64,000 nucleotides of DNA from assembly GCA_021324815.1 (NCBI GenBank), contig JAJPIJ010000030.1, positions 1-64,000 on the forward strand, written 5' to 3'. Source of the stretch: Gammaproteobacteria bacterium. GTDB taxonomy: Bacteria > Pseudomonadota > Gammaproteobacteria > JAJPIJ01. This document shows positions 41,469 through 62,162 of the stretch, in pieces. The stretch's first letter is position 1; each line of letters begins with the position of its first letter. A program made the position numbers and the translations under genes. The notes beneath the pieces were generated by a model. It did not search any database. It saw only the letters and a list, made by a program, of their open reading frames with translations, and was not told the DNA's origin.

Positions 41469-42304
41469 TGCCTGAGCAGGCCGCGGTCGCGCCAGCGATC
41501 GGGAAACAGCCGGCTCAGCCACATGGCGAGCCGCATGCCCGGACCCGGCAGATAGCGCGTGCGCGGCCGCAGCGAAAGCAGGGCGTGTTCGACCGCCGCC
41601 ACCACCTGATCCGCGGGCGCCGCGCGACGGGCTGCGTCCTCCATCACCCGCGCCACCTGTTGCATCGGCTGCTGGTACAGGGCGCGGCATGCGGCGGGCA
41701 GTTCCGCCATCAGCCCGGCGGCGGCGGCGTGGGACTTCCGCCAGATCGGCGTGGCCACCGGTCCCGGCTCGATGACGGCGACGGCAATGCGCCACGGCTT
41801 GAGTTCCAGCCGCAGGGCGTCAGACAGCGCCTCCAGGGCGAATTTAGACGCCGCGTAGGGTCCCAGGAATGGCGGCGCGACGAGGCCGGACACCGAGCTC
41901 ATGTTCACAATCCGGCCCCGGCCGCGGCGCAGAAGCGGCAGGCAGCGCTGTGTCACCGCCAGCGCGCCGGTGACGTTGACCTCCAGTTGTTGCCGGAATT
42001 TCGCCAGCGGCACGCATTCGAGCGGCGCGGCGACGGCGACGCCCGCGTTGTTCACCAGCCCCCGCAGCCCCGCGTCGCCGGCCTGCGCGGTGAGGTATGC
42101 GACCGCGGCCGCAATCGATGATTCATCGGTCACATCAAGCAACAGGGGGACGAGATTCGGGCCCCTCCCGCCCAGCCGGGCGGCGTCATTGTCATTGCGC
42201 ACGCCGGCGTACACCGTGAAGCCGGCGCGCGCGAAATGACTGGCGCAGGCCGCGCCGATGCCGGTCGAGGCGCCGGTGATGACGAGATGGCCGCGTTTGC
42301 TCAT
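41450..42304 (-). CDS. Short-chain dehydrogenase/reductase, last gene of the peptide operon
   Basis: A 284-residue classical SDR. It has the NAD(P) motif ITGASTGIGAACA at the N-terminus, LVNNAGVAVAAPLE, the catalytic Ser in MSSVSG and the Tyr-Lys pair in GPYAASKFALEAL. The ATG overlaps the stop of the M55 gene by 4 bases (ATGA), so its product should be made along with the upstream M55, ATP-grasp and GNAT proteins. Function in the pathway is unknown; oxidation or reduction of a modified residue or a metabolite is conceivable. It could also be an unrelated passenger gene. Confidence 0.88.
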   Translation of the reverse strand: MSKRGHLVITGASTGIGAACASHFARAGFTVYAGVRNDNDAARLGGRGPNLVPLLLDVTDESSIAAAVAYLTAQAGDAGLRGLVNNAGVAVAAPLECVPLAKFRQQLEVNVTGALAVTQRCLPLLRRGRGRIVNMSSVSGLVAPPFLGPYAASKFALEALSDALRLELKPWRIAVAVIEPGPVATPIWRKSHAAAAGLMAELPAACRALYQQPMQQVARVMEDAARRAAPADQVVAAVEHALLSLRPRTRYLPGPGMRLAMWLSRLFPDRWRDRGLLRHYGLPD

Positions 42305-43998
42305 GGCGCGACGCTCCGGCGACGATTCCATTCCTCCGCCCCCGCGAGCGCCAGGAGCAGCACGCCGGTGGCGTGGTCGGCCAGCAATTCCGGTGGGTCG
42401 CCAAGGGAGCCGTCGAACAGGGCGCCGTCCGGGCGCTGCGCGCCGAGCAGGAAGTCCAGCAGCTGCCGGTGACGCGGCGAGGCGTGTTCGCCCACGAGTT
42501 GCAGGCACAGCGCCGCCTCGGCGGCCAGATCGGCATGTCCCTCCCGCATCACCCACGGCACCGCCATCAGCAACTCCTCCGTGCGCGTCTCCCAGCCCGC
42601 GGCAGTCATGGGCCGGCGCAGATAATGGCTGGTGAAAAAAAATTCATGCGCCAGCCAGTACAGGTCATAAACCCGTGAATGTCCGCGCCAGGGACGATCC
42701 GGGAAATGCACCCCCGTGTCCACGCCGAGGCTTTGCAGCATGCCGGCGATGATGAAGGCGTACACGGATGCCTCCCGGTCGCACAAATGCCGCAGATAAT
42801 CACGCAGCGCACCGGCTTCCAGATCGCCGGCGGGCAGACCGCGCTCTTTCAGGATGTACCAGGCGTCCACCCGCGCCATTCCCTCATGAGGCTTGAGTGT
42901 CGGGGGAAATGCCAGCGGTATCCTCCGCAACTCCCGCAGCGCCTCGCCCAGCACGGGTGGCAAATCAAGCCCGGCGTGCACGTGAGGCGCCCACGTCTCC
43001 AGCATGTGCAGGATCAGCGCCCGCAGCACCACGCTGAACTCGTCCCCGGACGCCGTGCAATGCAGGAAGGCCCGCGCTGTTTTGCGCAGATCGCCGGTGG
43101 GCAGCGCCCGATTTTCATCCTCCCTCGTCACCACCGGCCGCGTAATCAGTTCCGCGATGTCCTCCGCCAGCTCCCCGCTGCCGGGCTGGCCGCGCACCGC
43201 CGGAATGACGGCGGCGATGCTGTCGAGCACCAGCCGGTGGCCGCGCTCGTAGCGCTCGCGGAAACTGCCACCCTCCACGATCACCCGGTAGGGGGAACAG
43301 CGCCGCGCGCCGCGTTGCGCGGCCCATTCCACCTGCCAGCGGCTCTTGAACGCGATCTCCAGCGGCCGCGCGGCCGGCGGTTGCGCCGGCACGGGCACCG
43401 CAGCGGACGCCGCCGCGCGCAACGCCTCGCACGCCGCCTTTTCGTCCATGGACACCGCCCCTTCGGCGTCGCGGCTGGTCTTGACGCACAGGCGCGGCAC
43501 CGCCGGCGGCAGGGCCGCGCACAACACGTCGTCGCCTGCAATCAACGCCACCGGCAATCCTTGTTCCGCCGCCAGCGCGAGCACGATGTCGGCCTCGCTC
43601 AGACGGCGGCCGTCCAGCCACCAGTCGCATTGCACGCTGACCGTATGCGCGGCGAAGCCCGCGGTGCCGGCGGGCGCGTGCATGCCGACGCAGGCCACCG
43701 CATCCACGTCCTGGAAATAATGCGCCGCGTAAGCGTCCTCATCCAGCACCAGTTTTGCCAGCGGATGCAACGATTGCTGCCGCACATTGGCGCCCCTGGC
43801 GCCGCCGCGATGACTGTCGCTGACGACGATCTCTCCGTACCCCGCCGTGGCCAGTCCCTCGATCATTGCATTCACCTGTGCGGTCATGCGCGCGCAGGCG
43901 GCGTCATATTCCGCTGTTCCGGCGACAAGCGGCGGCAGCGTGTCGATGCCGGCGATGCCTTCCATGTCGGCAATCAGCAATATTTTTTTCACGTTCAT
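42301..43998 (-). CDS. M55 D-aminopeptidase fused to a helical C-terminal domain
   Basis: The first 270 residues of this 565-residue protein belong to the M55 (DppA) family of zinc D-aminopeptidases. The metal and catalytic residues of DppA (D8, E10, H60, H104, H115, E133) are matched by D11, E13, H63, H107, H118 and E135 by motif (IADMEGIAG, DSHRGGARG, VGMHAPAG, AAHTVSV). Residues from about 300 to 565 are helical and Trp/Tyr/Leu-rich with repeats such as LLMAVPWVMREGHADLA and LLDFLLGAQRPDGALFDG, recalling an alpha/alpha-toroid fold; this second part is not in DppA. MNVKKILLIADMEG at 43998 is the start: its ATG overlaps the ATP-grasp stop by 4 bases. A D-aminopeptidase here hints at D-residue chemistry, but this is inference. 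Confidence 0.85.
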   Translation of the reverse strand: MNVKKILLIADMEGIAGIDTLPPLVAGTAEYDAACARMTAQVNAMIEGLATAGYGEIVVSDSHRGGARGANVRQQSLHPLAKLVLDEDAYAAHYFQDVDAVACVGMHAPAGTAGFAAHTVSVQCDWWLDGRRLSEADIVLALAAEQGLPVALIAGDDVLCAALPPAVPRLCVKTSRDAEGAVSMDEKAACEALRAAASAAVPVPAQPPAARPLEIAFKSRWQVEWAAQRGARRCSPYRVIVEGGSFRERYERGHRLVLDSIAAVIPAVRGQPGSGELAEDIAELITRPVVTREDENRALPTGDLRKTARAFLHCTASGDEFSVVLRALILHMLETWAPHVHAGLDLPPVLGEALRELRRIPLAFPPTLKPHEGMARVDAWYILKERGLPAGDLEAGALRDYLRHLCDREASVYAFIIAGMLQSLGVDTGVHFPDRPWRGHSRVYDLYWLAHEFFFTSHYLRRPMTAAGWETRTEELLMAVPWVMREGHADLAAEAALCLQLVGEHASPRHRQLLDFLLGAQRPDGALFDGSLGDPPELLADHATGVLLLALAGAEEWNRRRSVAP

Positions 43999-44990
43999 TG
44001 CCCCGCGACGGGCGGCATGGGTTCCACGGCGGCGGCGGCGGCGGACAGTGATTCCGTGCGCGCGAAGGTCACCAGGTAGCGCGCCAGTTGCGTCAGCACG
44101 GCGGCCACGAACTCCGGACCAATCCACAGCAGATAGGGGCCCGGATTGCAGTCGAGATAAACGTGCCTGCCCTCCTCCGTGACGATGAGGTCCCAGGCCG
44201 CGAAATGCAGCCCCAGCCGTCGCGTAGCCGCCACGATGCGTTGCTGTTCCATCGCCGGCATGGCGTAATGGTCAAATCCCGCCGTGCCCGTGCGTGAATC
44301 GACATACTCGGCGCGGATGCGCAGGGCCAGCACCATCGCATCCGCCACCACGTGCACGCGTGCGACGCGGCCGCGCACGCGCTCCTGCATCAGCACCGGA
44401 CAGCAGCGGAATTCCTCGAGCCGCCGCCGATCCGCCGGCGTGACGAGACGGGTCGAACCGATGCCCATGGCGGGTTTCACCACCACCTCGCCAATCCGCT
44501 CGATGAATGACGCCGCGACCGTGGGATCATTGGTGGTCAGGGTGCGGGGGACATCGAAGCCCCAGGATTGAAGCTTGGCGTAGAACTGTGACTTGGTGTT
44601 GTGATCGGCGTAACCCGCGGTCAGGGGATTGACCACCAGCTTGCCGCGCGCCGCCAGTTCTTCGAAAAACCCATAGGCCGCCGCCTGATATTCCTGCTCG
44701 CGCAGAAACCGGCCGCGCCATTCGTTGTAAGAGACCATGTTCAACATGGGCGGCGGCGTGGGCGGCGTATTGGGCGAGGTGCAGCGGATGTGCACGGCGT
44801 GGATGCCGGCGAAGTCCAGGCCATCCCAGGCCAGCTCCCGCGTTCCATAGGACACCCGCGAACGGCTGGCGCCGCCCAGCTGAATGTCGAACATGCGCGG
44901 CTCCCCGCCCTCCCGTTTCACGGCTTCCGCGACGTACGACAGCTGCTCGCTGCCGCGGTCGGCAAAAAGCGCGATAACCGGCTTCTCCAT
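43995..44990 (-). CDS. ATP-grasp ligase (RimK-like), intact active site
   Basis: A 331-residue ATP-grasp protein. The Rossmann-like N-terminal domain is followed by the ATP-grasp part with candidate ATP-binding Lys133 (NTKSQFYAKL) and Lys172 (VVVKPAMGIGST). The metal site consists of Asp267, Asp280 and Asn282 (YLDCNPGP). ATP-grasp enzymes form amide, ester or thioester bonds through an acyl-phosphate. The closest type by pattern is RimK/amidoligase. It shows clear pattern similarity to the degenerate protein at 46276-47418. It lies in the peptide operon between the GNAT gene (32-base gap) and M55 (4-base overlap). It may add amino acids to, or cross-link, the Gly-rich peptide. Confidence 0.82.
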   Translation of the reverse strand: MEKPVIALFADRGSEQLSYVAEAVKREGGEPRMFDIQLGGASRSRVSYGTRELAWDGLDFAGIHAVHIRCTSPNTPPTPPPMLNMVSYNEWRGRFLREQEYQAAAYGFFEELAARGKLVVNPLTAGYADHNTKSQFYAKLQSWGFDVPRTLTTNDPTVAASFIERIGEVVVKPAMGIGSTRLVTPADRRRLEEFRCCPVLMQERVRGRVARVHVVADAMVLALRIRAEYVDSRTGTAGFDHYAMPAMEQQRIVAATRRLGLHFAAWDLIVTEEGRHVYLDCNPGPYLLWIGPEFVAAVLTQLARYLVTFARTESLSAAAAAVEPMPPVAGQ

Positions 44991-45022: not shown

Positions 45023-45730
45023 CTAAACCACGGGGTCGTAGGGCGCCGGCAGCGTATGGAACAGCGGACGGCCGGATTTCTCCCGTTCCTCGCCGCGCGC
45101 CAGCTTTTCCTTGCGCTTCCTCCATCCCTCCTGGTTCATCGCAAAAAAGGCGTATTTATGCCCCCCCAATTCCCGCGTTTCGACCGGCGTGTAACCCAGC
45201 CGCTTGATCACGGCGTTGGCGGCGTGGTTGTCGTCACGCGATCGCGACCCGCACAGCGGCACGTTCAGATGCTCGAACATGTAATGGCCGACGGCGTCGT
45301 GCGTATTGAGCGCGTGGAAGGCGTTACGGTCGGCGGGATCCGGGATTGCGTAACCAAATTCCCAGAAAAAATTATCGATGACGGGCGGATACATCACCAG
45401 AAAACCGATGCGCTTGCGCGTCGCCACCGCCTTGATGATGGCCAGCACCAGGACGCCCGCACGGTAGCGGATCAACATCGACGGCGCGCCCAGCTCGCCA
45501 TAGCCGAACATCTCGGTAATTTCCGGGGAATGGAATTGTTCGATCATCCAGGACAGATCCGCCGGCGTCGGCGGCACCAGATACACCGTGCGCCGCTGGA
45601 TGCCGTACACCCAGCGCGACCAGTACGGACTCCGCGCGCCCATCCAGCAGCGATAGGCCAGAGAAGTCGCGGGCCGGCGGAGCCGGGGATGCTTGCATAC
45701 GCGCAGGAGCCAGTGCAATTTGTTGCCCAT
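45023..45730 (-). CDS. GNAT-fold N-acyltransferase
   Basis: A 235-residue protein with a GNAT core. Residues 50-70 hold VYLVPPTPADLSWMIEQF. The acetyl-CoA region is not canonical, but the C-terminal GNAT helix is clear: SRDDNHAANAVIKRLGYTPVETRELGGHKYAFF. The first 45 residues are basic and aromatic, and not part of the fold. A related GNAT may transfer acetyl or, in aminoacyl-transferase relatives, an amino acid. It lies just behind a terminator hairpin in the peptide operon. Which group is moved cannot be told. Confidence 0.65.
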   Translation of the reverse strand: MGNKLHWLLRVCKHPRLRRPATSLAYRCWMGARSPYWSRWVYGIQRRTVYLVPPTPADLSWMIEQFHSPEITEMFGYGELGAPSMLIRYRAGVLVLAIIKAVATRKRIGFLVMYPPVIDNFFWEFGYAIPDPADRNAFHALNTHDAVGHYMFEHLNVPLCGSRSRDDNHAANAVIKRLGYTPVETRELGGHKYAFFAMNQEGWRKRKEKLARGEEREKSGRPLFHTLPAPYDPVV

Positions 45731-45756: not shown

Positions 45757-45797
45757 CTAAAAACAACGGGGGCATCCCATCCAGGATGCCCCCGCTT
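45757..45797 (-). terminator. Rho-independent-type terminator after the Gly-rich peptide gene
   Basis: A perfect 11-base inverted repeat (CGGGGGCATCC / GGATGCCCCCG, 45767-45777 and 45784-45794) with a 6-base loop is followed, read on the minus strand, by TTGTTTTTAGG. It lies 25 bases after the peptide stop and 36 bases before the GNAT start. An attenuating terminator between a precursor gene and its modification genes is a common way to give much more precursor than enzyme; read-through level is unknown. Confidence 0.85.
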
Positions 45798-45819: not shown

Positions 45820-46068
45820 TTACGAGCTGACGTTGATGCTGCCGATGGAGGTGTTGTCAGACGCGCTGGCATTGCCACCCTTGCCACCGCCGGCATCACC
45901 GCTGCCGGAACCCGAGCCGCTGCCTTTCGCAGTGCCCACGCCGGTGCCGATGCCCGCGCCCACGCCACCGTGGCTGCTGGCGTCGCCACCCATCTTCATG
46001 TTGCCGCTCTGCTGGACGCCGCCCATGCTGCTGGAACTGCCACCACCGCCTTTGCCCATCAAACCCAT
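45820..46068 (-). CDS. Gly/Ser-rich 82-residue peptide, candidate precursor of the system
   Basis: This 82-residue peptide has 29 Gly and 17 Ser, no Cys, Pro, Glu, Tyr, Trp or Phe, and only three Asp. It begins MGLMGKGGGGSSSSMGG, has a mid part GAGIGTGVGTAKGSGSGSG, and ends KGGNASASDNTSIGSINVSS. The gene has an excellent AGGAG box 7 bases before its ATG and lies between a sigma-54-type promoter and a terminator, so I am confident that it is translated. The KGG before NASASD could be a double-glycine junction, but the exporter's C39-like domain lacks the catalytic Cys. Neighbours on the same strand are a GNAT, two ATP-grasp proteins, M55 and export genes. No homologue is recognised; the role as substrate is inference. 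Confidence 0.8.
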   Translation of the reverse strand: MGLMGKGGGGSSSSMGGVQQSGNMKMGGDASSHGGVGAGIGTGVGTAKGSGSGSGSGDAGGGKGGNASASDNTSIGSINVSS

Positions 46069-46142: not shown

Positions 46143-46158
46143 AGCAGGTGTCATGCCA
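46143..46158 (-). promoter_or_regulatory. Sigma-54 (-24/-12) promoter of the Gly-rich peptide gene
   Basis: On the minus strand the sequence TGGCATGACACCTGCT matches the sigma-54 consensus TGGCAC-N5-TTGCT well: GG and GC are exactly 10 bases apart (GG at 46157-46156, GC at 46145-46144). Expected transcription start is near 46132, giving a leader of about 64 bases. The cluster encodes a GAFTGA-type sigma-54 activator at 60710-62071. An IHF site and a palindrome lie upstream at the distances normally seen for such promoters. Confidence 0.8.
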
Positions 46159-46275: not shown

Positions 46276-47418
46276 CTATACACCTGGTTTTACCGCCTGG
46301 TCCGCGACATCTTGGTCATCCTTGGTTTTATCCTGATTCGCATCCGCGCCGGCGTACTTGCTGTGCTCCATCTCAAATTGAATCTGGAGCATGCGGCGTA
46401 AAAACAGGGTGGGGCGCTCGAGGCGCGGCGGTAAAGCATGCGGTTCGACGGTGTCCCGCGCGGTACGGGCGGAGAACTGCCGTTCCAGCGCCTCCAGGAG
46501 GCGTTCCGCAACCGGTGGCGGCAATGCATCGAGGGATGGATCGAAATCCACGTCGAAGATCACCGTCTCCCCGCCGGCGTGGACATCGAAACTCACCTCG
46601 ATCCACCAGGCGCTCCCGGCGCCGGCCAGCCGCCCGAGTTCGGCCATCACCCTTTCCCCGGGCGTGAATGGCAGCCATGTTTCCAGCGATTCCATGCGGG
46701 CGAGCTCGCCGTGATCCCCGCCCGCTTCCAGTTCCTCGACCGGCCGCAATGAGGCCGGCTCCACGCTCAAACACAACAGACATTCCCCGCCAAACAGCCA
46801 GGCCCGCAGTTGTCGCCGGCCATCGTGGCCGGCCAGCATCACGGGCGGCTTGTCGGGGGCAATCAGGAACAATCGCTGCTTGTCGGTGAACCTCTGCCAG
46901 GCGGCGCGCCCGCTGGCCGGCCGCCACCAGACCATGGGATGGCGCTCCATGAAGGCCTCCACCTCCGCCATGTCGTTGCTGCACAGTAACTCAGGGACAC
47001 GAAAGCCCTGGCGCTGAAGCAGAAGCAGATGTTCCACAAGCATGAACTGCCGGGCGATCAACCTGCGTGAATTGATGACTTTCGCGCCGCGCCGCTCGAG
47101 CTCGGCAAACAGGCTCTCCCATGCGCTGTAGCGCTGCTGTTCCAGCAGATGATCATGGCGCCAGAGACTCCAGTCCGCAGTCCGCAACGCCGGCGGCAGG
47201 ACCGGATCCATGTACGGCAGCCCGCGCACCCACAGCCAGTCCAGCCTGCTCAGGTCCATGCCGCGGCACGCGACGGTTTCATCGTCCAGCACAAACTGCG
47301 GATCCTCCCGCCACGACAGATCGAAAACCATGCAGGATCCCGGGGCGGCGGAGTTCAGCCGCCCCGCCAGTTGCAACGCGAAGCTATCTTCGGGATGGCA
47401 GAAGATTCCTACGGCCAT
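46276..47418 (-). CDS. ATP-grasp-like protein with degenerate active site
   Basis: This 380-residue protein aligns by pattern with the intact ATP-grasp protein at 43995-44990: both have an N-terminal domain, a WR....LLEQQ/LREQE block, EL.RRGAKVINS / ELAARGKLVVN, and GF.VPELLCSND / GFDVPRTLTTND. The key residues differ: the first ATP Lys is absent (QFMLVEHL), the second is Arg166 (WWRPASGR), and the metal motif is FDVDFDPS in place of LDCNPGP. It probably does not hydrolyse ATP, and may bind the peptide or regulate its partner. A TTG six bases before the ATG at 47418 is an alternative start. A Lys/Asp/Gln-rich tail of about 25 residues follows the fold. It follows the three TolC-like genes by 49 bases. 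Confidence 0.65.
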   Translation of the reverse strand: MAVGIFCHPEDSFALQLAGRLNSAAPGSCMVFDLSWREDPQFVLDDETVACRGMDLSRLDWLWVRGLPYMDPVLPPALRTADWSLWRHDHLLEQQRYSAWESLFAELERRGAKVINSRRLIARQFMLVEHLLLLQRQGFRVPELLCSNDMAEVEAFMERHPMVWWRPASGRAAWQRFTDKQRLFLIAPDKPPVMLAGHDGRRQLRAWLFGGECLLCLSVEPASLRPVEELEAGGDHGELARMESLETWLPFTPGERVMAELGRLAGAGSAWWIEVSFDVHAGGETVIFDVDFDPSLDALPPPVAERLLEALERQFSARTARDTVEPHALPPRLERPTLFLRRMLQIQFEMEHSKYAGADANQDKTKDDQDVADQAVKPGV

Positions 47419-47467
47419 GGGCAAGGATCACGATGAGTCACTCCCGGCATGGCGTGGCGGAAGTTCC

Positions 47468-49549
47468 CTATTTCCCATCAGCGATGGCCGGTTTGCGCGA
47501 GGTGATGTAACCGAAAACCTGGGTGAAATACTTGAAGATGCCGTATCCCGCCAGCGAGTGCAGGCGCTGGAGGTCCACGCCGCTCGGCGCGGTGGCCTCA
47601 CCGTAGGCCGCGGCGATGATGCCCTCGGCCGCCAGGAGATTCGACTCGGCGATCTTGTTGTTGATCAGCGCGTTGATGTGGTCCTGTTTGGCCTGCAGCA
47701 ACTCCTGCGATTTGAGCACGAGCTCCAGTTCGCGCACATCGCCGCCTTTTTCACGCCGTTCCACCAGCTTGTCGTAGGCCGCCTGCGCAAACCCCACATT
47801 TTTCTCGGTGATGTCGATCTGGGCGCGCGCGGCGAACACGCCGGCCAGGGCGTCGTTCACCTGCTGGCCCACGTTGTTCTCGACATCCCGCACCGTGAGC
47901 GCCTCCGCTTCGTTGCCCAATTCGGCCTGCGTGAACAGCGCCTTGAAGGCGCGATTGCCCCACGGATAGCGGTAATTCAGATTGTAATTTTTCGACAACG
48001 TGTCGGGGTCGCCCACGGCGCCGATGCTCTGCCAGTAGGTCCGGTAACCGAGCACCGACGAGTCCTGGGACGAGGTGATGTTGGCGGTGAGCAGCAGGTC
48101 CGGCCGCAACTGGTGGCGCTGGAATTCCAGCGCGATCTCGCTCTGCTCCTTCGACACCTTCTCGGCGGCGATCTCCGGCCGGTGGTCCAGCGCCAGCTGC
48201 ATCGCCTGCCCCGCATCGACCACCAGCAGTTTGTCCAGCAGCGGCCGATAGTCGCGCGGCAGCAACAAGTAAGGATCGGTGGACTCCCCCGAGCTTTCCA
48301 GCAAGGCGGCCAGATTATTGGAGGCCGTCACGACATTGACCCTGGCGGCCTCTTCCAGCGTCCGCACCCGCGCCAGCTCGGCGTCGGTCTGTACCTTGCC
48401 GTAGGCGGTCGTCAATCCCTGCTCGAACAGGTGGTTGGTATGTTCGGCGATCTTCTCGACATGCTGGCGGTTGTCCATGACGACGGCAAGGTTTTCGATG
48501 CTGCGCACCAGCTCCCAGTATTGGGTGTCCACGGTCAGCAGGGTGGAATTGATGATGGTGCGCAAATCCCACACCGAGCGTTCGGCGCTCTTTTCCGCCT
48601 GCCGCAGATTCACATCGTTGGGCGCCTGCGGGCCGAAATCCTTGCCGCCCGGCACCGGCACGCTCAGGTTGAACACCATGCTGGTGGCGTAAGGCCGGTT
48701 GTTCGACAGGCGCAAATCATTGTTGTAGTAAACCTTGTGGTCGGTGGTGAAGAGGCCGACGCTGAACGCCGGCCCCCAGGGCAATTGCTGATCCACCTCC
48801 ACGCTGTAGTTCATGGTCTTGGTCGGGCCGGTGGCCGAGCCCTTGCTGGCGTGCACTTCCTTCATGCAAGCGCCGCTGGACAGTTTGGCGTCATCCTCAC
48901 AGAAATGGCCGGGCGGGAGCGGGCTGGCGGTCACTTGCAGAAACCCGAGCAAATTCACTTGTGGTCCAGTGACGAAAGGACTCGTGGGAATGGTGATGAC
49001 ACCAGGTTGCAGCAGCTTCGACTCGACAAGCGGTTGCAGTTTCAGACTGACATCCCCCTCACAACCAAAGGAACAGGGGTTGAAGGTCTTGATGGTCACC
49101 GTGCCAAAGTGACTGCGTTCGTAGGTGCTGCTCTGATCGAAACCGACGGAAAACTTGAACACCGGATTGAAAACGGCGTCGGCCTCCTTGATGGCCTCTT
49201 CGATGATTCCCGCGTTCTCGTGCCCCACCTTGATGCTCAAATTCTTCAACAGCGCCTCCATGGCGGCGGCGCGCAACGGCAGCAAGCGCACCTTCCTCGG
49301 CGCCACGTATTGCTGCGTGCCGCCCTGCCCCTCCAGCAACTGCCTGGCGACGGACTGCAGGACTTCATCGGAGGCCACCGGCGCATCCACCCCCAGCAGG
49401 TCGGTCAGGCGGGCATATTCCCGTCCCCCCTCGCCGCCGGCGGTTCCCGCCGCGGTCGCCTCCGCGGCGGCGGCACCGGCGCACAAGCCCGGGCCGCAGC
49501 CCGCCAGCAGCAGCGCCAGCAACCGGAGTCGGGAAGGCTTACCGCTCAT
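47468..49549 (-). CDS. TolC-like outer membrane protein 1 of 3, possible lipoprotein
   Basis: A 693-residue TolC-family protein, much longer than E. coli TolC. Its start MSGKPSRLRLLALLLAGCGPG carries an LAGC lipobox (Cys18), so it may be lipid-anchored as OprM is. An N-terminal extension of about 200 residues contains the shared block KNLSIKVGHENAGIIEEAIKEADAVFNPVF, then two efflux repeats, the second with ALDHRPEIAAEKVSKEQSEIAL and LEFQRHQLRPDLLL. Its ATG lies within the last 11 bases of the preceding gene; GGAG lies 10 bases upstream of the ATG. It is one of three TolC-like genes in tandem. Confidence 0.85.
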   Translation of the reverse strand: MSGKPSRLRLLALLLAGCGPGLCAGAAAAEATAAGTAGGEGGREYARLTDLLGVDAPVASDEVLQSVARQLLEGQGGTQQYVAPRKVRLLPLRAAAMEALLKNLSIKVGHENAGIIEEAIKEADAVFNPVFKFSVGFDQSSTYERSHFGTVTIKTFNPCSFGCEGDVSLKLQPLVESKLLQPGVITIPTSPFVTGPQVNLLGFLQVTASPLPPGHFCEDDAKLSSGACMKEVHASKGSATGPTKTMNYSVEVDQQLPWGPAFSVGLFTTDHKVYYNNDLRLSNNRPYATSMVFNLSVPVPGGKDFGPQAPNDVNLRQAEKSAERSVWDLRTIINSTLLTVDTQYWELVRSIENLAVVMDNRQHVEKIAEHTNHLFEQGLTTAYGKVQTDAELARVRTLEEAARVNVVTASNNLAALLESSGESTDPYLLLPRDYRPLLDKLLVVDAGQAMQLALDHRPEIAAEKVSKEQSEIALEFQRHQLRPDLLLTANITSSQDSSVLGYRTYWQSIGAVGDPDTLSKNYNLNYRYPWGNRAFKALFTQAELGNEAEALTVRDVENNVGQQVNDALAGVFAARAQIDITEKNVGFAQAAYDKLVERREKGGDVRELELVLKSQELLQAKQDHINALINNKIAESNLLAAEGIIAAAYGEATAPSGVDLQRLHSLAGYGIFKYFTQVFGYITSRKPAIADGK

Positions 49550-51572
49550 GGCGTTTTTCTCCGGCAAAGACCGGGACGATGTTTTGCGTCAGCAATGCCT
49601 TGACGCGGCCCTCCTCGGCGCTGGTCTGCGCCGTGCGATCGGCGTATTTTGACGGCAGTTCGCCCACGGCCGCCAGCCAGTTGGCCTCCGCCTGTTTGGC
49701 GCTGATGACGGCATTGACCCAGTCGTTGGTGGCCTGCAACAGTTGCTGGCTCTGCTGGATGATTTCGTACTCGGTCACGGTGCGCGAGCGCTGCTGATCG
49801 ACGGCCTTTTGATAAGCGGTCTGCACCAGCTGCCAGTTGCGGCGGGCGATGTCCGTGCGCGCACGCGCGCTCACCAGGTTCACCGCGGCGTCGCTCAAGG
49901 CGTGCGTGAGGGTGTTCTCGGTGCTTCGCAGCGTGAGTTCGCTGATGTCACGATTGTATCCGGCCTGCGCATAGCCCGCCTCGGCGGCCACGTTGCCCCA
50001 CTGGCGCGTCAGCTGCAGCGAGTAGTTCTGCGAGATGATGTCCGGCTTGAAAACGCGGGCCATGGCGGAATTCCACTCGTGGTAGCCAAAGACGCTGTTG
50101 GACTGGAGGAAATTGGCGCCGGCGTTGAAGGTCAGATTGGGCTGGCGGTTGATGTCGCTTTGCCTCAGCAGGACATCCGCGGTCTCGACATTGTAACGCT
50201 GCGATTGCAGCAGCGGGTTCATGGCCACCTGCTCCCTCTTCAACTGGGCGGGATTCACGTCCAGCGGCGCGGCCAGGCTGACGCTGTACTGGATGGGCAG
50301 ATACACGGCGTCTGCGCCGCCGTCCAGCAGAGGCTGGAGTGCGTTGGAGGCGGTGATGTAGGCGTTCTTGGCCTGCTCAACCTGGTTTCTCACCCGCTCC
50401 AGCTCGGCCTGCACCTGGGCGCGGCTGTAGTCGGTAATCTCGCGCAGTTGATACATTTCCTCGGTTTTCTTCAACAACTGCTCGACGCTCTGCTGGTTCT
50501 GCAACGCGGCGTAAAAGTTGTTGGCGGCGCCGACCAGATTCCAATAGCTCAGATCCACCGCCAGCAGGGTGGCGTTGATGACATTCTTGACGTCCCAGAC
50601 CGCGCGCTCATCGTTTAGTCTCGCCAGGTGGTTCTGCACGTCGGCGGAGGCCGCGTCGGGGCCGTAGTGGGCGCTGCCCGGGACGGGTATGCTGTACGAC
50701 AGCGACGTATTCACCGTCCACGGCCGGTGATAGCTGCCCGCCGTCGGATGCAGGCTGCCGGCGTTGTTGACGAAATCCGCCACCTTGTAGACGGTCTCGT
50801 AGTTGAGATTGATGCTGGCCCCCCACGGCAGCTGCTGGGTGACGGTAAAGTCAGCGTTGTACTTCTCGTTGTCGCCGGTCACGCCATCCGGATGGGCCGT
50901 TATCACGTCGCCCGGCCTGTACCCCGCCGCCCTGGGCTGGTCAAAGCCAAGGAATTGCACCGGCGAATTGTCAAAGAATATGAAATCGTTGTGCTTGCCA
51001 TCCGCCGTCAATATGGGCGCCGGAATAAGGGAGCATTCCGGCGGATTGTTGGGCGCCGGGGGCGGATCACAATGGGTGGTCGCCTTGTGGAAGCGGCTCA
51101 CCGTGACCTTGCGCTCGAAGTCCCGGCTGTCGCTGTAATTGAACGACAGGTTCAGCACCGGGTCGAACAGGGCCCTGGCCTCCTCCAGTGCCGCAGCCAC
51201 GATGCCCTGATTCAAATGCGATCGCTGGATGGTCAGGTTCTTGGTCAATGCGGAAAGCGCGACCGCGTGCGGATCGATTTCCACCAGCTTCTTGCCGGCG
51301 AGCGTCTGCCAGACGCCTGCCGTGCTTTTGGCGTTGAAGGCGTCGCGGATGACGTCGTTGATGGCCTTCTCCCGTTCCGCAACCCCCTCGGCGGTCTGCA
51401 GATCGGCGATCTTCATCGAGGCCGTGTTGACCTCCCTGCCGGCGGGGGCCGGGGATTCCTGGCCGGGTTCCTGGGCCCGGGAGCCGCCGGCAATCAAGGT
51501 GAGCATGGCCGCGAGCCAGGCGGCGCGGCAGCGGCCGGCGGGAGGATTCGTCATGCTCATGGGCGTGTTCAT
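49539..51572 (-). CDS. TolC-like outer membrane protein 2 of 3
   Basis: A 677-residue TolC-family protein with a signal peptide (about residues 1-33, ending GGSRAQ). It shares with its neighbours the N-terminal block ALTKNLTIQRSHLNQGIVAAALEEARALFDPVLNLS in pieces (LEEARALFDPVLNLS) and has the channel repeats (DVQNHLARLNDERAVWDVKN, MNPLLQSQRYNVETADVLL). The ATG overlaps the stop of the preceding gene by 4 bases, so coupling is tight. Export channel role by family. Confidence 0.87.
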   Translation of the reverse strand: MNTPMSMTNPPAGRCRAAWLAAMLTLIAGGSRAQEPGQESPAPAGREVNTASMKIADLQTAEGVAEREKAINDVIRDAFNAKSTAGVWQTLAGKKLVEIDPHAVALSALTKNLTIQRSHLNQGIVAAALEEARALFDPVLNLSFNYSDSRDFERKVTVSRFHKATTHCDPPPAPNNPPECSLIPAPILTADGKHNDFIFFDNSPVQFLGFDQPRAAGYRPGDVITAHPDGVTGDNEKYNADFTVTQQLPWGASINLNYETVYKVADFVNNAGSLHPTAGSYHRPWTVNTSLSYSIPVPGSAHYGPDAASADVQNHLARLNDERAVWDVKNVINATLLAVDLSYWNLVGAANNFYAALQNQQSVEQLLKKTEEMYQLREITDYSRAQVQAELERVRNQVEQAKNAYITASNALQPLLDGGADAVYLPIQYSVSLAAPLDVNPAQLKREQVAMNPLLQSQRYNVETADVLLRQSDINRQPNLTFNAGANFLQSNSVFGYHEWNSAMARVFKPDIISQNYSLQLTRQWGNVAAEAGYAQAGYNRDISELTLRSTENTLTHALSDAAVNLVSARARTDIARRNWQLVQTAYQKAVDQQRSRTVTEYEIIQQSQQLLQATNDWVNAVISAKQAEANWLAAVGELPSKYADRTAQTSAEEGRVKALLTQNIVPVFAGEKRHER

Positions 51573-53527
51573 TCGTACAACCCCTGGCTGGCCTGCAACT
51601 GGACGTAGGCCTGATGATAACTCACCGTGGCGTCGATGTACCGCGAGCGGGCATCCAGCATGTCGCTCAACGTGCGCAGCAACTCAAACTGGCTCGCCAG
51701 CCCCAGGTTCTTCAGGCGCTCCACCTTGGCGTAGGCCAGTTCCGCGAGTTCCATGTTCTGTTGCGCCAGTTGCCGCTGGGTACGGGCGCTTAAAAACTGG
51801 GCCAATGCATTATTGACCTGCTGGGTGATGCCCAGTTCGGTCTGCGACTGATTGTCGACACTGGTATTCACGGCCAGACGGGCCTTCTGCAACTGCGCCT
51901 TTTCCGCCTGCAGGCCAAAAGGCAGGCGGTAGCTGACGCCCACGAAAAAATCGCTGGCGTCGGGCTCGACCAGGTTCATCAGCGAACTTTCCACGTTGCG
52001 GTAGCCGAAGGCGGTGTCGAATTGATTCAACGCCGCCGAGGCGGAAAAGGAAAGCTCGGGACGCACCTGGTTCTCGGCAAATTTGAGATTGATCTGCGCC
52101 TTCTCCACCTCCCCCTGGCTGATCTTGAGTTCGCGGCGGTTATCGAGCGCGGTCCGCCGGACGGCGGTCGCATCCACCGCGTAATCCTGGCCGAAGGCCT
52201 GCGTGTAGCCCGAGGGCACGACGATGGTGTCCGGCGGGTAATCCAGGAGCTCGGCCACGGCATTGGAGGCCAGCACATAGTTGTTCCATGCGATTTGTTC
52301 GCGATCGCGGAGATTTTCCATTTGCGCCTCGGCCTGGGCCATGTCGTAGGCGGTGACCAGCTGCTGGTCGAATTGCCGCCGCGTGCTGGCCACGATCTGC
52401 TCCAGGATTTGCCGCTGGGCGGCGATCACCTCGATTTGCTTGAGCGCGCCAACCAGCGACCAGTACTGCACCCACATGCCCGGAACCCCGCCCACCACGC
52501 CGCCGAGGACCTGGTTGCTGACGGCTTCGATCCGCCATTCGGCCTCCTGCAGGCTGATGACCGCCTGCTTGATGCCGATGGATTGGGTGTTGCCGTATTC
52601 GCCGAAGTTGCGGGCATACGGCAGCGGCGTGGAAAACGACAGGCTCAGATTGGAAGTCCACGGCAGGCGGCTGCCGATGTTCAGGGGCGGCGTGGTCAGG
52701 CCGGCGATATTGGGGACGGGGCCTTCCAGAAAATCGGGGAAGGTCCAAAAATCCTTCTTGCGCCGGTTGACGGTGAGATCCGCCTGTACGTTGCCGCCCC
52801 ACTGGAAATTCTTGAGCAGGCCGAATTCCGCACCCCACAGAAACTGGTCATAGAAGCTGCCGCTGGCGTGCTCGGTCTGCTTGTTGAGTATCACGTCGTT
52901 GGTGCAGGAGCCCTGGCCGCTGTTCGGGTCGGTGTTGCCATTGACCAGCTGCCCGTCGACGATGACGCAGACAAAATTGGAATTGACCGCGGGCTGTCCA
53001 TTGGCGGTGCTGAAGAAATCCTTCTGGAATTGGTCGGGGTCAAACTGGGAGAATTTTTCACGCAGGCGCAGTATTTCATCCGTGCGCCCGCCGGCATCGA
53101 GGCGCTGATGGTTCAAGGTCACTGAAAAAAATGGATCGAAGGCCGCCGCAGCCCCGGTCAGGGCGGCATCGGCAACGTCACGGGCGCGTTGCTGGATGAT
53201 GACGGCGAGGTTGCGGCCGCGAGCGAGATCGGCGATGTCGCTCTGACGCAGTTCGGAGATGTTCTTGTGACTGAAGAACCCCTCCGCGCCCGGCCGCAGT
53301 CCGGCGACCGCCTGGTTGATCAAATCGCGCCCCGTCTCCTCGCTGGTGATGGATTCGAAGCGCTGGACGATTGACGCGGCGGACTCATCCGGCGCCGGAA
53401 GATTGGTGTCGATATTGGCGGGGGCGGGTTCCGGCGCTGCGAGCGGGCGGGAAAAACCCGCCCAGAAAAGAAGGAGCCCGCCGAGGCAGGTGACGGACGG
53501 GCGTAATAAATACACGCGCATCCTCAA
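51569..53527 (-). CDS. TolC-like outer membrane protein 3 of 3
   Basis: A 652-residue TolC-family protein with a signal peptide (to about residue 31, SRPLAAP). The block ARGRNLAVIIQQRARDVADAA and AAAAFDPFFSVTLNH correspond to the shared N-terminal block, and the channel repeats follow (IGIKQAVISLQEAEWRIEA, LDNRRELKISQGEVEKAQI). It is the first transcribed of the three, 153 bases after the FHA gene, and overlaps the next by 4 bases. The gap holds only a weak AT-rich inverted repeat. Confidence 0.87.
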   Translation of the reverse strand: MRMRVYLLRPSVTCLGGLLLFWAGFSRPLAAPEPAPANIDTNLPAPDESAASIVQRFESITSEETGRDLINQAVAGLRPGAEGFFSHKNISELRQSDIADLARGRNLAVIIQQRARDVADAALTGAAAAFDPFFSVTLNHQRLDAGGRTDEILRLREKFSQFDPDQFQKDFFSTANGQPAVNSNFVCVIVDGQLVNGNTDPNSGQGSCTNDVILNKQTEHASGSFYDQFLWGAEFGLLKNFQWGGNVQADLTVNRRKKDFWTFPDFLEGPVPNIAGLTTPPLNIGSRLPWTSNLSLSFSTPLPYARNFGEYGNTQSIGIKQAVISLQEAEWRIEAVSNQVLGGVVGGVPGMWVQYWSLVGALKQIEVIAAQRQILEQIVASTRRQFDQQLVTAYDMAQAEAQMENLRDREQIAWNNYVLASNAVAELLDYPPDTIVVPSGYTQAFGQDYAVDATAVRRTALDNRRELKISQGEVEKAQINLKFAENQVRPELSFSASAALNQFDTAFGYRNVESSLMNLVEPDASDFFVGVSYRLPFGLQAEKAQLQKARLAVNTSVDNQSQTELGITQQVNNALAQFLSARTQRQLAQQNMELAELAYAKVERLKNLGLASQFELLRTLSDMLDARSRYIDATVSYHQAYVQLQASQGLYE

Positions 53528-53680: not shown

Positions 53681-55018
53681 TCAATTGGCGCGGGTCACCG
53701 CCCCCCATTTATCCACCACCAGCACGTCCTTGTCATCCACATCGCCCACGATGCCGTTGAAGAGCAGGTAGTTCACCGACAGCGCCAGGTTGTTTTTCTT
53801 GCGCAGCTCGGCGAATTGATCGCGTAATTTCCTGATCTGCTCCATTTCCCCCTTCGAGGGGGCGGATTTGGCGTCCTTGGCTGGATTTGGATACCGCTGG
53901 GCAAACGCCTTGATCCGGATGACCGGCCCGGCCAGCTCCAGCAGGCTGGCGACATCCGAATAAATCTTCTTGCTGTCGTCGTCCTTGGTCTCCGCACCGC
54001 CGGCGCTCAGCTTGTCGAATTCCGACTGCGCCTGCGCCAGCAGGGGAATGGCCTGATCGGGCTTGCCCTGCTGGATGAGGTTCATCAGATTGCGTTCGAA
54101 CTGCAGAAACAGCACCTGGGCCATCACCGCCTTCAATTCCGTCGAATTCGGGTATTGGGAGGTGGCCTCGCTCAGTTCCGCCATCATGTTGCCAAGCTGG
54201 GTGGCCTGCTTTTGATGCTCGGCGGCGGAATAGTGCCCGGCGCTGTCCTCGTTGTCGCGCATGAAGGCCTTGACCTCGGCGCGGGAGTTCTTCAGCGCGG
54301 CCTCCGCGCCGGAACCGCCGCGGCCGAAATACCAGTAGCCGCCGCCGGCGATGGCCGCCAGCAACACGGCCAGCGCCGCCCATTTAAGTCCTGCGCCCTT
54401 CTTCCGCACAGCAGCCGGCGTCATCGCCGCCGCGTGCGCCGCGCCGCGGCGCGCCGGCGTGGCCGCCGCCCGCTTTTCAGCCTCCTGCTGCCTGTTTTTG
54501 GCGTCCAGCAACATCGCCGCCGCCATGAGATTGGAGCCGACGAACATGGTGCGCTCGGAAACCGTCTTGTCCGGATCGAAATCCGCCTCGTGTTTCCTGC
54601 CGTCCTTGGTCACGGTACCCTTGATGTCCGGACGCACCATGACAAACTGAAACGGTATCTTGCCAATCTTGATGGTGTCGCCCGGCTTCAACGGCGCGTC
54701 CTCCACCTTGGCGTCATTCACGTGCACGCCGTTGGTGCTGCCCATGTCCTGCACCCGCCAGCCGCCGTTGCTGAAATAAAAACGCGCGTGCCTCTTGGAA
54801 ATGCCGGTGGCGTTCAACGGCACGGTGTTCTCCTCGCCACGACCCACCGTTTGTTCCTTGCCGCTCAGATCGATTTCCAGCCCGCGGGTGGGATCGGGCA
54901 GCCGGCTTTGATCCAGGCAGATGAGCTTGCAGGGCAGCGGGCCTGCGGCCGCGCCCGCCGGCCGGGCGGGAACTTCCACGGTACCCGTGAACATCACGGT
55001 CTTGTCATCACTGCTCAT
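53681..55018 (-). CDS. FHA-domain membrane protein of the export cluster
   Basis: A 445-residue protein with no signal peptide. An FHA domain spans about residues 45-125, with VGRGEENTV, GISKRHARFYFSN and GSTNGVHVN as phosphothreonine-binding motifs. One transmembrane helix lies at about 212-231 (LKWAALAVLLAAIAGGGYW). A helical C-terminal domain that should be periplasmic follows (about 235-445). Two short stretches, DDKTVMFTG near the N-terminus and DPDKTVSERTMFVG after the FHA domain, are Thr-rich and may be phosphorylation sites. No Ser/Thr kinase gene is in the window. It sits between the ABC exporter and the TolC-like genes and may assemble or gate the exporter. Confidence 0.82.
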   Translation of the reverse strand: MSSDDKTVMFTGTVEVPARPAGAAAGPLPCKLICLDQSRLPDPTRGLEIDLSGKEQTVGRGEENTVPLNATGISKRHARFYFSNGGWRVQDMGSTNGVHVNDAKVEDAPLKPGDTIKIGKIPFQFVMVRPDIKGTVTKDGRKHEADFDPDKTVSERTMFVGSNLMAAAMLLDAKNRQQEAEKRAAATPARRGAAHAAAMTPAAVRKKGAGLKWAALAVLLAAIAGGGYWYFGRGGSGAEAALKNSRAEVKAFMRDNEDSAGHYSAAEHQKQATQLGNMMAELSEATSQYPNSTELKAVMAQVLFLQFERNLMNLIQQGKPDQAIPLLAQAQSEFDKLSAGGAETKDDDSKKIYSDVASLLELAGPVIRIKAFAQRYPNPAKDAKSAPSKGEMEQIRKLRDQFAELRKKNNLALSVNYLLFNGIVGDVDDKDVLVVDKWGAVTRAN

Positions 55019-55042: not shown

Positions 55043-58000
55043 TCAATTGACTCGTTGCAGCACGGGCGCTTCTTCCGGCGAAGGCGAGGGCGCCACCAAA
55101 TCCAGCGGCGGCAAATCGAACTGGGTTTGCGCCATGGCGTAATACAGTCCCTTGTATCCCATGGATTTGAGATATTCCCTGTCCAAAAGTTGCCTGTGGG
55201 TGCCCTTTTCCTGCACCTGACCGTCCTTGATGAAGCAGATCATGTCCGAATCCATCACCGTCGTCAGGCGGTGCGCGATTGAAATTGAGGTGCGCCCCGC
55301 CAGTATGCCCTGCATATTTTCCATGATGCGCGCCTCGGACTCGTTGTCGAGGGCGCTGGTGGCCTCGTCGAAAATGAGGATCTTGGGCTGGCGGTACAGC
55401 GCGCGGGCGATGCAGATGCGCTGCCGCTGGCCGCCGGAGACCCCGATGCCCTTTTCCCCCACCAGCGTGTTGTAGCCCAGCGGGTAGCGGATGATGAACT
55501 CATCGGCGCCCGCGAGCCTCGCGGCCTCCTTCACCGCCTGCATGTCCGGCTCCGGATCGCCGAGCGCGATGTTCTGCGCCACCGTGCCGCCGAACAGAAA
55601 GCTGTCCTGCAACACCACGCCGATGTTGGAGCGCAGCGAGGACAGCTCCAGCGTGCGGATGTCGCGGCCGTCGATCTTGCAGAAGCCGCTCTGTGGAATG
55701 TTGAAGCCCAGGATCATCTTGGCGATGGTGCTCTTGCCGCAGCCGGAGGGCCCGACGAAGGCCACGCGCATACCCGGCTCTATCTCCAGGTTGAAATTGC
55801 GCATGATGTTGTTTTCCTTGCCGTTGGCCACGTAGCTGAAATTGACGTCCTCGAAGGTGATCTCGCCGCGGCAATGCGCCAGGGTGGCGGGCATGCTGTC
55901 CGGCTGGAGCATGGTTTGTTCCGGCTTGACGGAGAGCACGTCGCCGACGCGGTCAATGGCGATGCGCACCTCCTGGAACTGGTTGATCAGATCGAGCATG
56001 CTCAGAATCGGCCCCATCACCGCCCCCATCAGCATCTGGAAACCCATCAATTCACCGATGGTCATCTGCCCCGCCATGACCGAACTGGCGCCGACGAACA
56101 GAATGGCGATGGTGGTGCCCGACTGCACCGTCTCGTACAGGCCCTTGGAAATCAGTTCCAGCTTCTGGCTCTGGAATTGCAGGTTGATGGTCTCGGTCAT
56201 CTGGTTTTCCCAGCGCGAGCGGGCGAAATATTCATTCGACGTCGCCTTCACCGCCTCGATGCCGTTCAACGACTCGATCAGATAGCTCTGCGACTGGGAA
56301 TTGGTGACGAAGGTCTTCTGCGCCAGCATCTTGATGCGCGGCACGAAGAACCACAGCAGCAGAAAATACAGGGGGATGGAACACAGCGTGATGATGGTGA
56401 GGGTGCCGTTGTAGGAAACCATCATGAACAGGTAGATCACCACCATCACCAGGCTCATGATGGTGGAGATGGTCGAGCCGGCGATGATGTGCCGGATTTT
56501 CTGATTCTCACCGAAGCGGGCCAGGATTTCGCCCTTGTTGCGGCTCAGGAAGAAATTCATCGGCAGGCTCAGCACGTGCCGGTAAAACTCGGCCACGAGT
56601 TTCAAATCGATCCGGGCAGTGGTGTAGGCCAGCAGCAGGGCCTGCGCCGACTTCGACAGCACGGTAAACAAGGTCACCAGCGCCATGCCCACCAGCATGA
56701 TCTTGAGCAGGTCGGCGTCCTTGTGGACCACCACGGTGTCGACGATGCTCTGCACGAACAGCGGCGTGGCCAGCCCCAGGAAATTGATGGTCAATGCCGC
56801 GAGCAGCCCCTCGGCGAAATACTTCCAATGCGGCAGGATGTAGTCGAGGAAGTGCCGCAGGGGGCTCTTGGGCGGCTCCAGGCGGGTGAATTCCACCGTC
56901 GGCTCCAGGCCGATGACCACCCCCCGGCTCGGGTCCTCCCGCTCCACACCGCTGACCTGCGCACGGGTCCAGCTGGTGATGAATTGCTGTCGCGGCAGCC
57001 GGCCCTGCCCGTAGAGGGAATCCGAGAAGTACACCTCCTTGTCCGTAATCTTGTAGATCACGGAATAGCGGTATCCCTCCCAGCCGACGATCACGGGCAG
57101 TTGCATGCGCTCCAACTGCTCGAACGTCACGGCATAGGCGCGCGCGGAAATGCCGAGGATCTCGGCCGCGGTGATGATGGCGTTGGGCGTCGGGTTGGCG
57201 ATGGAGAGATTGGCGATCTCGCGCACCTGGCCGAGCGAAAAGGGCTTGCCGTAATGCTGCACCACCATCGTCAGGCAGGCGGCGGCGTTGTCCTGCTCGC
57301 TGAACTGGCGGACGTTCGGGAAAGTATCAATGGCCTTGGCATGCTTGGCGAGGAATTCCTCCTCGGTCACCGCGTCGGCGAGCTTGATGCGCTGGTCCGC
57401 GCCCTCGGCGCGGCTCTTGATGTCCTTCTCCTCCTTCTCGCGGATGCGCATGGAATTAAACCGCACCCGCAGCTTTTCGTGCAGCGCCGGGTTGATGGCG
57501 AGGATCTTCTGGACCTCGGGCTCGTTGATGACCAGCACCGTGGTGTCCACCACGCACAGTGCCGAATGCGGCTGGATGCCGTTGGTGCCGACATCCGGCA
57601 GCGCTCCGCCCTCGCCGATGAGCTCGCGCGCGCCGACGCGATCCAGTATCACCTTCTCACCGGAAAGCAGGGTGCGTTCGAGATCCACCGAACCGGTCTC
57701 GATGTAGTACAGCCGGCGGTCTTCCATGTCCTGCTTGAAAAGATACTTGCCCTTCTTGCCCTTCTTGATGCCGATGCGGCTTAAGATGGCGGTGAATTGC
57801 TCCGGCGTGTACTTGGCCGCCCCCAGCATGCCGCGCAGGCGCTGCCCCAGCTCGACGAGCCCCACCTGCGTCTTGAAGGTGGCCGACATGGCGGGGCGGC
57901 CGGCCAGCAGCGGCCGCACCTTGTCGGCCGGCAGGAACAGCAGGCTTGAATCCTCCGAGGCGGTGATTTGGTAATCCCAGGGCTTGGGCTGGATCAGCGA

Positions 58001-58258
58001 AAATTCGCCGAAGGTGCTGTCGGTGCCGAACTCACCGAGACTGACGCGCCTGCCGGCCTTGGTCTCCTTGAGCCGGAGCTTGCCGGAGTACACCACGTAC
58101 ATGCCGGCCATGTTCTGGCCCTGCTCGGCGATCACCTGGCCCGCGCTGTAGGTCCTCACCTCGAAGAGCGGCGCAAGTTGTTGCTTGTCATCGTTGTTCA
58201 GACCGCTGAACATCAGGTGGCTGTTCAATACAAACCGGACTGCCTCTTCTTTACTCAT
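55043..58258 (-). CDS. ABC exporter with two cNMP-like domains and a C39-like domain
   Basis: A 1071-residue protein. Residues about 10-130 and 150-270 are two cyclic-nucleotide-binding-like domains (FGEFSLIQ; IGEGGALPD), both without the usual PRAAT Arg. A C39-like domain (about 310-450) follows, reading RQFSEQDNAAACLTMVVQHYG: the catalytic Cys expected at 324 is Asn and the next Cys is at 328, so it is not a competent leader peptidase. Then come six transmembrane helices (about 480-780) and the nucleotide-binding domain with GPSGCGKSTIAK, VSGGQRQRICIARAL and KILIFDEATSALD. The layout is like the HetC-type exporters of cyanobacteria. It lies between the FHA and HlyD-like genes. Confidence 0.92.
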   Translation of the reverse strand: MSKEEAVRFVLNSHLMFSGLNNDDKQQLAPLFEVRTYSAGQVIAEQGQNMAGMYVVYSGKLRLKETKAGRRVSLGEFGTDSTFGEFSLIQPKPWDYQITASEDSSLLFLPADKVRPLLAGRPAMSATFKTQVGLVELGQRLRGMLGAAKYTPEQFTAILSRIGIKKGKKGKYLFKQDMEDRRLYYIETGSVDLERTLLSGEKVILDRVGARELIGEGGALPDVGTNGIQPHSALCVVDTTVLVINEPEVQKILAINPALHEKLRVRFNSMRIREKEEKDIKSRAEGADQRIKLADAVTEEEFLAKHAKAIDTFPNVRQFSEQDNAAACLTMVVQHYGKPFSLGQVREIANLSIANPTPNAIITAAEILGISARAYAVTFEQLERMQLPVIVGWEGYRYSVIYKITDKEVYFSDSLYGQGRLPRQQFITSWTRAQVSGVEREDPSRGVVIGLEPTVEFTRLEPPKSPLRHFLDYILPHWKYFAEGLLAALTINFLGLATPLFVQSIVDTVVVHKDADLLKIMLVGMALVTLFTVLSKSAQALLLAYTTARIDLKLVAEFYRHVLSLPMNFFLSRNKGEILARFGENQKIRHIIAGSTISTIMSLVMVVIYLFMMVSYNGTLTIITLCSIPLYFLLLWFFVPRIKMLAQKTFVTNSQSQSYLIESLNGIEAVKATSNEYFARSRWENQMTETINLQFQSQKLELISKGLYETVQSGTTIAILFVGASSVMAGQMTIGELMGFQMLMGAVMGPILSMLDLINQFQEVRIAIDRVGDVLSVKPEQTMLQPDSMPATLAHCRGEITFEDVNFSYVANGKENNIMRNFNLEIEPGMRVAFVGPSGCGKSTIAKMILGFNIPQSGFCKIDGRDIRTLELSSLRSNIGVVLQDSFLFGGTVAQNIALGDPEPDMQAVKEAARLAGADEFIIRYPLGYNTLVGEKGIGVSGGQRQRICIARALYRQPKILIFDEATSALDNESEARIMENMQGILAGRTSISIAHRLTTVMDSDMICFIKDGQVQEKGTHRQLLDREYLKSMGYKGLYYAMAQTQFDLPPLDLVAPSPSPEEAPVLQRVN

Positions 58259-62071: not shown

Positions 62072-62162
62072 GGATACGAGCCTCCTCCGGCTTGGGAAAG
62101 CCGGGCGACGGCCGCACGCGGTCGGTCCTGAAGTCCTGGCGGGGACTGAATTCAGCGCCGCT

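Follow-up and report, generated by a model that had tools for sequence, protein, structure and literature searches.

The window analysed here, a stretch of DNA of 64,000 nucleotides, carries on its minus strand a short gene (45820..46068; ATG at 46068, stop codon ending at 45820) that encodes a Gly/Ser-rich peptide of 82 residues, proposed here to be a precursor. A previous sequence-only reading had placed the gene correctly, leaving out the strand, and its account of the composition is borne out by recomputation: the peptide consists of 29 Gly, 17 Ser, 6 Ala, 5 Met, 4 Lys, 4 Val, 4 Asn, 3 Asp, 3 Ile, 3 Thr, 2 Gln, 1 Leu and 1 His, lacks Cys, Pro, Glu, Arg and the aromatic residues Phe, Trp and Tyr, and ends in NTSIGSINVSS. 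The sequence KMGGD occupies residues 25-29 and the tail, DNTSIGSINVSS, residues 71-82. The start codon is preceded by a ribosome binding site (AAGAGGAGAACTCAA-ATG, with AGGAG 5' of the ATG), a sigma-54-type -24/-12 site, TGGCATGACACCTGCT, lies about 76 bases before the ATG on the same strand (46143..46158), and an intrinsic terminator with a 14-pair stem and a T-run follows directly 3' of the gene (45765..45796, minus strand). TGGCATGACACCTGCT is the sole match to the degenerate pattern TGGCAYNNNNNYTGCW in the 64 kb, where shuffled sequences lead one to expect 0.39. The ribosome binding site, promoter and terminator of the earlier reading hold up, the first being good and the last strong, and together they make the gene look like its own transcription unit. 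The promoter is probably switched on by the sigma-54 activator encoded in the same cluster.

The neighbours of the peptide gene in the cluster all share its orientation. In order of transcription the cluster begins with a ShlB/FhaC-like two-partner secretion transporter (62163-63893), conserved in a genome of the same genus (G001) and located upstream of the sigma-54-dependent activator with its AAA+ domain (60710..62215, minus strand as are all following features), the candidate regulator of the sigma-54 site. Then come a PpiC-type peptidyl-prolyl isomerase (59793..60680), conserved across clusters, an HlyD-type adaptor (58313..59713), an ABC exporter with cyclic-nucleotide-binding, C39-like, ABC membrane and ATPase domains (55043..58258), an FHA-domain protein, likewise conserved across clusters (53681..55018), and three TolC-like channel proteins at positions 1 (51569..53527), 2 (49539..51572) and 3 (47468..49567) of a conserved triplet. 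ATP-grasp 1, a divergent PsnB/CdnC homologue (46276..47424), precedes the peptide gene, which is followed by a GNAT acetyltransferase recognized by its Acetyltransf_3 domain match (45023..45730), ATP-grasp 2, a graspetide-synthetase-like protein (43995..44990), an M55 D-aminopeptidase (DppA-like) with a DUF6895 domain (42301..43998, likely ATG at 43998) and a short-chain dehydrogenase. Among the clusters read, the aminopeptidase occurs only in the window genus. One GNAT gene lies beside the one peptide gene in the window and three lie beside three tandem peptide genes in G001 (L031:3026-6413), so that a one-to-one relation is possible; no GNAT was found in the other clusters read. In three genomes a PP2C phosphatase gene adjoins ATP-grasp 2 or the peptide genes, and a fourth encodes a protein kinase nearby (L032, L053, L055 and L060), which, together with the FHA protein, suggests that phospho-signalling may control the system.

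The peptide family and its genomic neighbourhood

Is the short gene conserved? The G001 genome carries three tandem copies at the same position, ending in SDNTSIGSINVSG, and a family profile built from 24 short Gly-rich genes read around ATP-grasp 2 relatives revealed convincing members in 11 further genomes. The family thus comprises 61 distinct peptides in 13 genomes, the window's and 60 relatives in 12 other genomes, and is spread over two phyla, Pseudomonadota and Nitrospirota (Ca. Magnetocorallium). The profile gives 16 hits in Ca. Magnetocorallium (G747), 9 in G235, 7 in G104 and 6 in G331, and some of the copies it detects are far removed from the cluster. The window peptide is a diverged member, since it matches the profile with E = 3.5e-5 only. 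Close to the N-terminus all 60 peptides with a complete N-terminus (L114 lacks this part) contain the motif K-x-G-G-(D/E), and in 45 of them its Lys is the sole one. At the C-terminus, the most constant portion of the peptides, stands the tail DNTxIxxIN(I/V)xx, in which D and N are found in 61 of 61 members, T in 60, I in 58 and the second N in 58, the tail being extended in one member (L107, 5953). The final two residues differ (SS, SG, SA, NA, NT, NS, TS, AG and others), and between the two motifs all members have a variable Gly/Ala/Ser middle, the distance from the Lys to the tail Asp being 41-78 residues and most commonly 62. The earlier reading had proposed to look next to the same two ATP-grasps for homologous short genes with a constant C-terminus and a variable middle, and such genes are found across two phyla. 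Low-complexity composition could also arise from a chance open frame in GC-rich DNA; with fixed-motif relatives in 12 other genomes and a gene that has its own ribosome binding site, promoter and terminator, this has practically no probability left, and the comparative data led to its rejection. Searches of Pfam, NCBIfam and PDB sequences yielded no match for the peptide or its family, and the motif strings appeared in no relevant paper in a literature search; judged by its sequences, the family is hitherto undescribed.

Some further features were seen at the level of DNA and of gene order. A 34-base match elsewhere in the window genome (L002) falls within the Gly/Ser-coding part of the peptide gene. 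The last 14 codons (45823-45864) are near-identical in DNA to those of the G001 copies (L031), 12 being the same, one synonymous and one not, and show fewer synonymous changes than the remainder of the gene, for which gene conversion or a constraint at the DNA or RNA level are candidate readings. Copies of an NxDPxG type stand first in all seven arrays that contain one (L057, L058, L060, L092, L096, L097 and L098); what comes after them is of another type, in most cases one with AEGTG.

Other genomes of the class and of the phylum also encode relatives of ATP-grasp 2, and further ones come from named records, namely Ca. Magnetocorallium (Nitrospirota), an uncultured Thiotrichales bacterium and a Magnetococcales MAG. 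Peptide genes adjoin ATP-grasp 2 in 10 of the 14 genomes that encode it. In six of these (window, G001, G466, G520, G497, G536) they lie in between the two ATP-grasp genes; in G493 and G407 they are next to ATP-grasp 2 at the end of a contig, and in G104 and G319 just past ATP-grasp 2. In three genomes they are located away from it (G235, G331, G747), and in G147, which has both ATP-grasps and the exporter, the profile search found no peptide gene. The C39-type ABC exporter is present in all 14 (54-94% identity) and ATP-grasp 1 in 13, the exception, G493, being 80% complete. Conversely, strong hits of the peptide profile occur in only two of 303 genomes of the class, both with ATP-grasp 2, at a cut-off so strict that the window genus itself was missed and weak relatives elsewhere may escape. 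Because the peptide family, ATP-grasp 2 and the exporter co-occur across genomes, the earlier proposal that the neighbouring enzymes and exporter have the peptide as their substrate is well supported and, on these comparative grounds, very likely correct. Dispersed copies sit between unrelated genes. Sites of the same sigma-54 type (TGGCAY-N6-TGCW) were found within 250 bases upstream of 8 of 33 copies that are first in an array and of none of 28 inner copies, with 0.06 expected. In Ca. Magnetocorallium (L092-L098) most first copies carry YGGCAYRNTNTTTGAT about 50-80 bases before the ATG, which resembles a sigma-54 site with GA replacing GC at -12. Moreover, ATP-grasp 2 was absent from 99 sampled relatives of Ca. 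Magnetocorallium, suggesting that this copy may have been acquired horizontally; a plasmid collection contained no relative of ATP-grasp 2.

The ATP-grasp enzymes and the candidate chemistry

What could these enzymes do to such a peptide? In profile comparisons ATP-grasp 2 is closest to PsnB (7drm, 1.5e-33), followed by MdnC (7e-17), MdnB (9e-16), CdnC (6e-11) and RimK (4e-6). PsnB is also the best match to its predicted fold (model pLDDT 77, Foldseek 2e-21), ahead of MdnC and, further down, RimK. Aligned with PsnB, it has kept the Lys and the Arg residues as well as Asp and Asn of the metal site, the ExN motif reading DxN. Scores against the curated graspetide maturase models of NCBIfam, TIGR04187, TIGR04185 and TIGR04184, are 83, 57 and 48 bits and do not reach the cut-offs of 350, 425 and 475 bits. 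ATP-grasp 1, which reaches PsnB at 8e-8, differs in its catalytic positions: across nine homologues Arg stands in place of the catalytic Lys, conservation of the metal Asp is lost and ExN has become D/N/E-x-D. A model with both ATP-grasps active was rejected for these losses, and ATP-grasp 1 is a probable pseudo-enzyme partner, so that of the ATP-grasp pair of the earlier reading only ATP-grasp 2 has kept its catalytic residues.

An inactive-looking ATP-grasp 1 would also suit a different scenario, in which the peptides leave the cell without modification and build an extracellular fibre or matrix. The constant tail would then direct export or assembly, and the ATP-grasps would have some other substrate or serve as chaperones. 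The multi-copy dispersed genes and the Gly/Ser/Ala-rich composition would agree with such a role, and the alternating Ile/Asn tail could form a strand. However, the catalytic positions of ATP-grasp 2 are kept and its gene adjoins the peptides, making this scenario unlikely. The AlphaFold prediction for the window peptide, computed from a three-row alignment, contains no structural elements (pLDDT 53, pTM 0.12), and this absence of a confident fold says little either way.

The earlier reading had argued that so acid-poor a peptide must carry a bond different from that of graspetides, for example through C-terminal elongation. In that case ATP-grasp 2 would add amino acids to the C-terminal carboxylate of the peptide in the manner of RimK, or the peptide would act as a scaffold. 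RimK-type alpha-L-glutamate ligases do share the ATP-grasp fold with ATP-grasp 2, and the C-terminus is the most constant portion of the peptides; yet neither by sequence nor by fold is RimK the nearest relative of ATP-grasp 2, being clearly further away than PsnB and MdnC, and the final two residues, to which the additions would be made, vary. Elongation was therefore rejected as leading chemistry, and elongation or a scaffold role appears very unlikely. In view of the invariant Lys, Asp and Thr of the family a lactam or lactone is the better bet, and side-chain chemistry of this kind is given an even chance on the strength of enzyme homology and peptide conservation. Briefly, conversion of an Asp or Glu side chain to an acyl phosphate would be followed by attack of the invariant Lys, giving a lactam, or of a Thr or Ser, giving a lactone, with one water lost per bond. 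Candidate donors are the invariant Lys or the Thr of DNT, candidate acceptors the Asp/Glu at Lys+4 and the Asp of DNT, and the single exchange at Lys+4, from Asp to Glu, is compatible with a carboxylate being needed there. Alternatively, the constant residues may serve for recognition and not be modified themselves.

Predicted export and processing

The export machinery is similar to type I secretion by HlyB/HlyD/TolC in combining an ABC exporter that has a C39-like domain with an HlyD adaptor and a TolC channel. It differs in the N-terminal cyclic-nucleotide-binding domains of the exporter, in the three different TolC paralogues and in substrates of about 80 residues, and the exporter scores below the NCBIfam cut-offs for HlyB and NHLP. 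The C39 domain of HlyB is devoid of catalytic residues, and the same holds for the window genus, where in the window and G001 the catalytic Cys is replaced by Asn and the His by Arg (GWEGYHY reads GWEGYRY), so that the residues of an active C39 peptidase are missing in both. Cys and His are intact in seven relatives (G104, G235, G319, G466, G497, G536 and G147, the His of the last being read by eye in GWEDYHY). As the loss concerns the window genus only, cleavage by C39 would be expected in the seven relatives and not here. The family peptides contain two conserved Gly-Gly sites, neither of which lies in a classical C39 leader with its hydrophobic positions. Furthermore, the three TolC paralogues stand in fixed order in all complete clusters, and a tree of 27 TolC proteins shows position 1 and position 3 as one group each, both with good support (100/99), and position 2 as one or two groups. 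Such an old triplet kept in order suggests an outer-membrane channel that may be built from three different subunits.

A C39-type exporter would equally serve a peptide produced in the same way for a bacteriocin-like or signalling function, which would differ from the explanation favoured below in purpose and not in chemistry, and the seven arrays headed by an NxDPxG copy recall two-peptide systems. Nevertheless, no gene resembling an immunity gene was seen and the dispersed copies lie between unrelated genes, which leaves this purpose somewhat unlikely.

Proposed pathway and relation to known systems

Taken as a whole, the peptide is reasonably likely to be the precursor of a new family of ribosomally made, modified and exported peptides. 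The sigma-54 activator would turn on the peptide promoter, the peptide would be recognized via its two constant ends, and ATP-grasp 2, partnered by the pseudo-ATP-grasp 1 and perhaps by the PpiC isomerase, would modify its side chains. The product would exit through the C39-like ABC, HlyD and triple-TolC machine, in most species after C39 cleavage at a Gly-Gly; in the window genus, because the catalytic residues of C39 are lost, it would be exported uncut or trimmed by another enzyme. Counting against this explanation, no graspetide-type core with repeated donor/acceptor pairs is legible in the sequence, the window peptide contains no more than three Asp, and a constant C-terminus is the opposite of the usual arrangement of constant leader and variable core. 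A more elaborate version appears decidedly unlikely as a package: an obligate pseudo-ATP-grasp partner, ATP-grasp 2 acting in trans on many scattered precursors under sigma-54 control, the invariant Lys tied to a carboxylate, possibly the tail Asp in a ring of about 40-60 residues, and export through a three-subunit TolC channel.

In gene layout and enzyme type the pathway, by analogy, works like the graspetide route of microviridin (mdnA-E) and plesiocin (PsnA/PsnB), with which the cluster has ATP-grasp synthetase homology and predicted fold in common. In mdnA-E a short precursor is surrounded by a pair of ATP-grasps, a GNAT and an ABC transporter of C39 type, as it is in the window. As in graspetide systems, there is a synthetase homologue with catalytic residues kept and a short precursor beside and conserved with it. 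Unlike in these systems, the precursor fits no described family, lacks an acid-rich repeated core and has a variable middle ahead of a constant tail; one of the ATP-grasps is degenerate, the precursor genes are scattered in trans, and a TolC triplet and a cyclic-nucleotide-binding exporter are present. Sets of possible core residues exist in the invariant Lys, the Asp/Glu and the Asp-Asn-Thr, without any known core pattern or repeat. With such a core, and with scores below the curated maturase cut-offs, the system can be regarded as a candidate graspetide pathway only. A further parallel is offered by rosaritide, a graspetide that requires for activity a PpiC-type partner encoded with its synthetase (PMC13097080). 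The window cluster likewise encodes a PpiC-type isomerase with the synthetase, to which it adds the sigma-54 activator, the pseudo-ATP-grasp and all three parts of an exporter. In its main text, a published graspetide survey (PMC8939145) uses no TolC, FHA or Magneto- terms. No system found in the literature searched combines precursors that have constant ends and a variable middle with as many as 16 dispersed genes for them, a pseudo-ATP-grasp that is conserved and a retained set of three old TolC paralogues. The cluster supplies a concrete, testable pairing of enzymes and substrate that lies outside the graspetide groups described so far and occurs in uncultured and magnetotactic lineages, and acid-poor peptides should stay in searches for ATP-grasp substrates.
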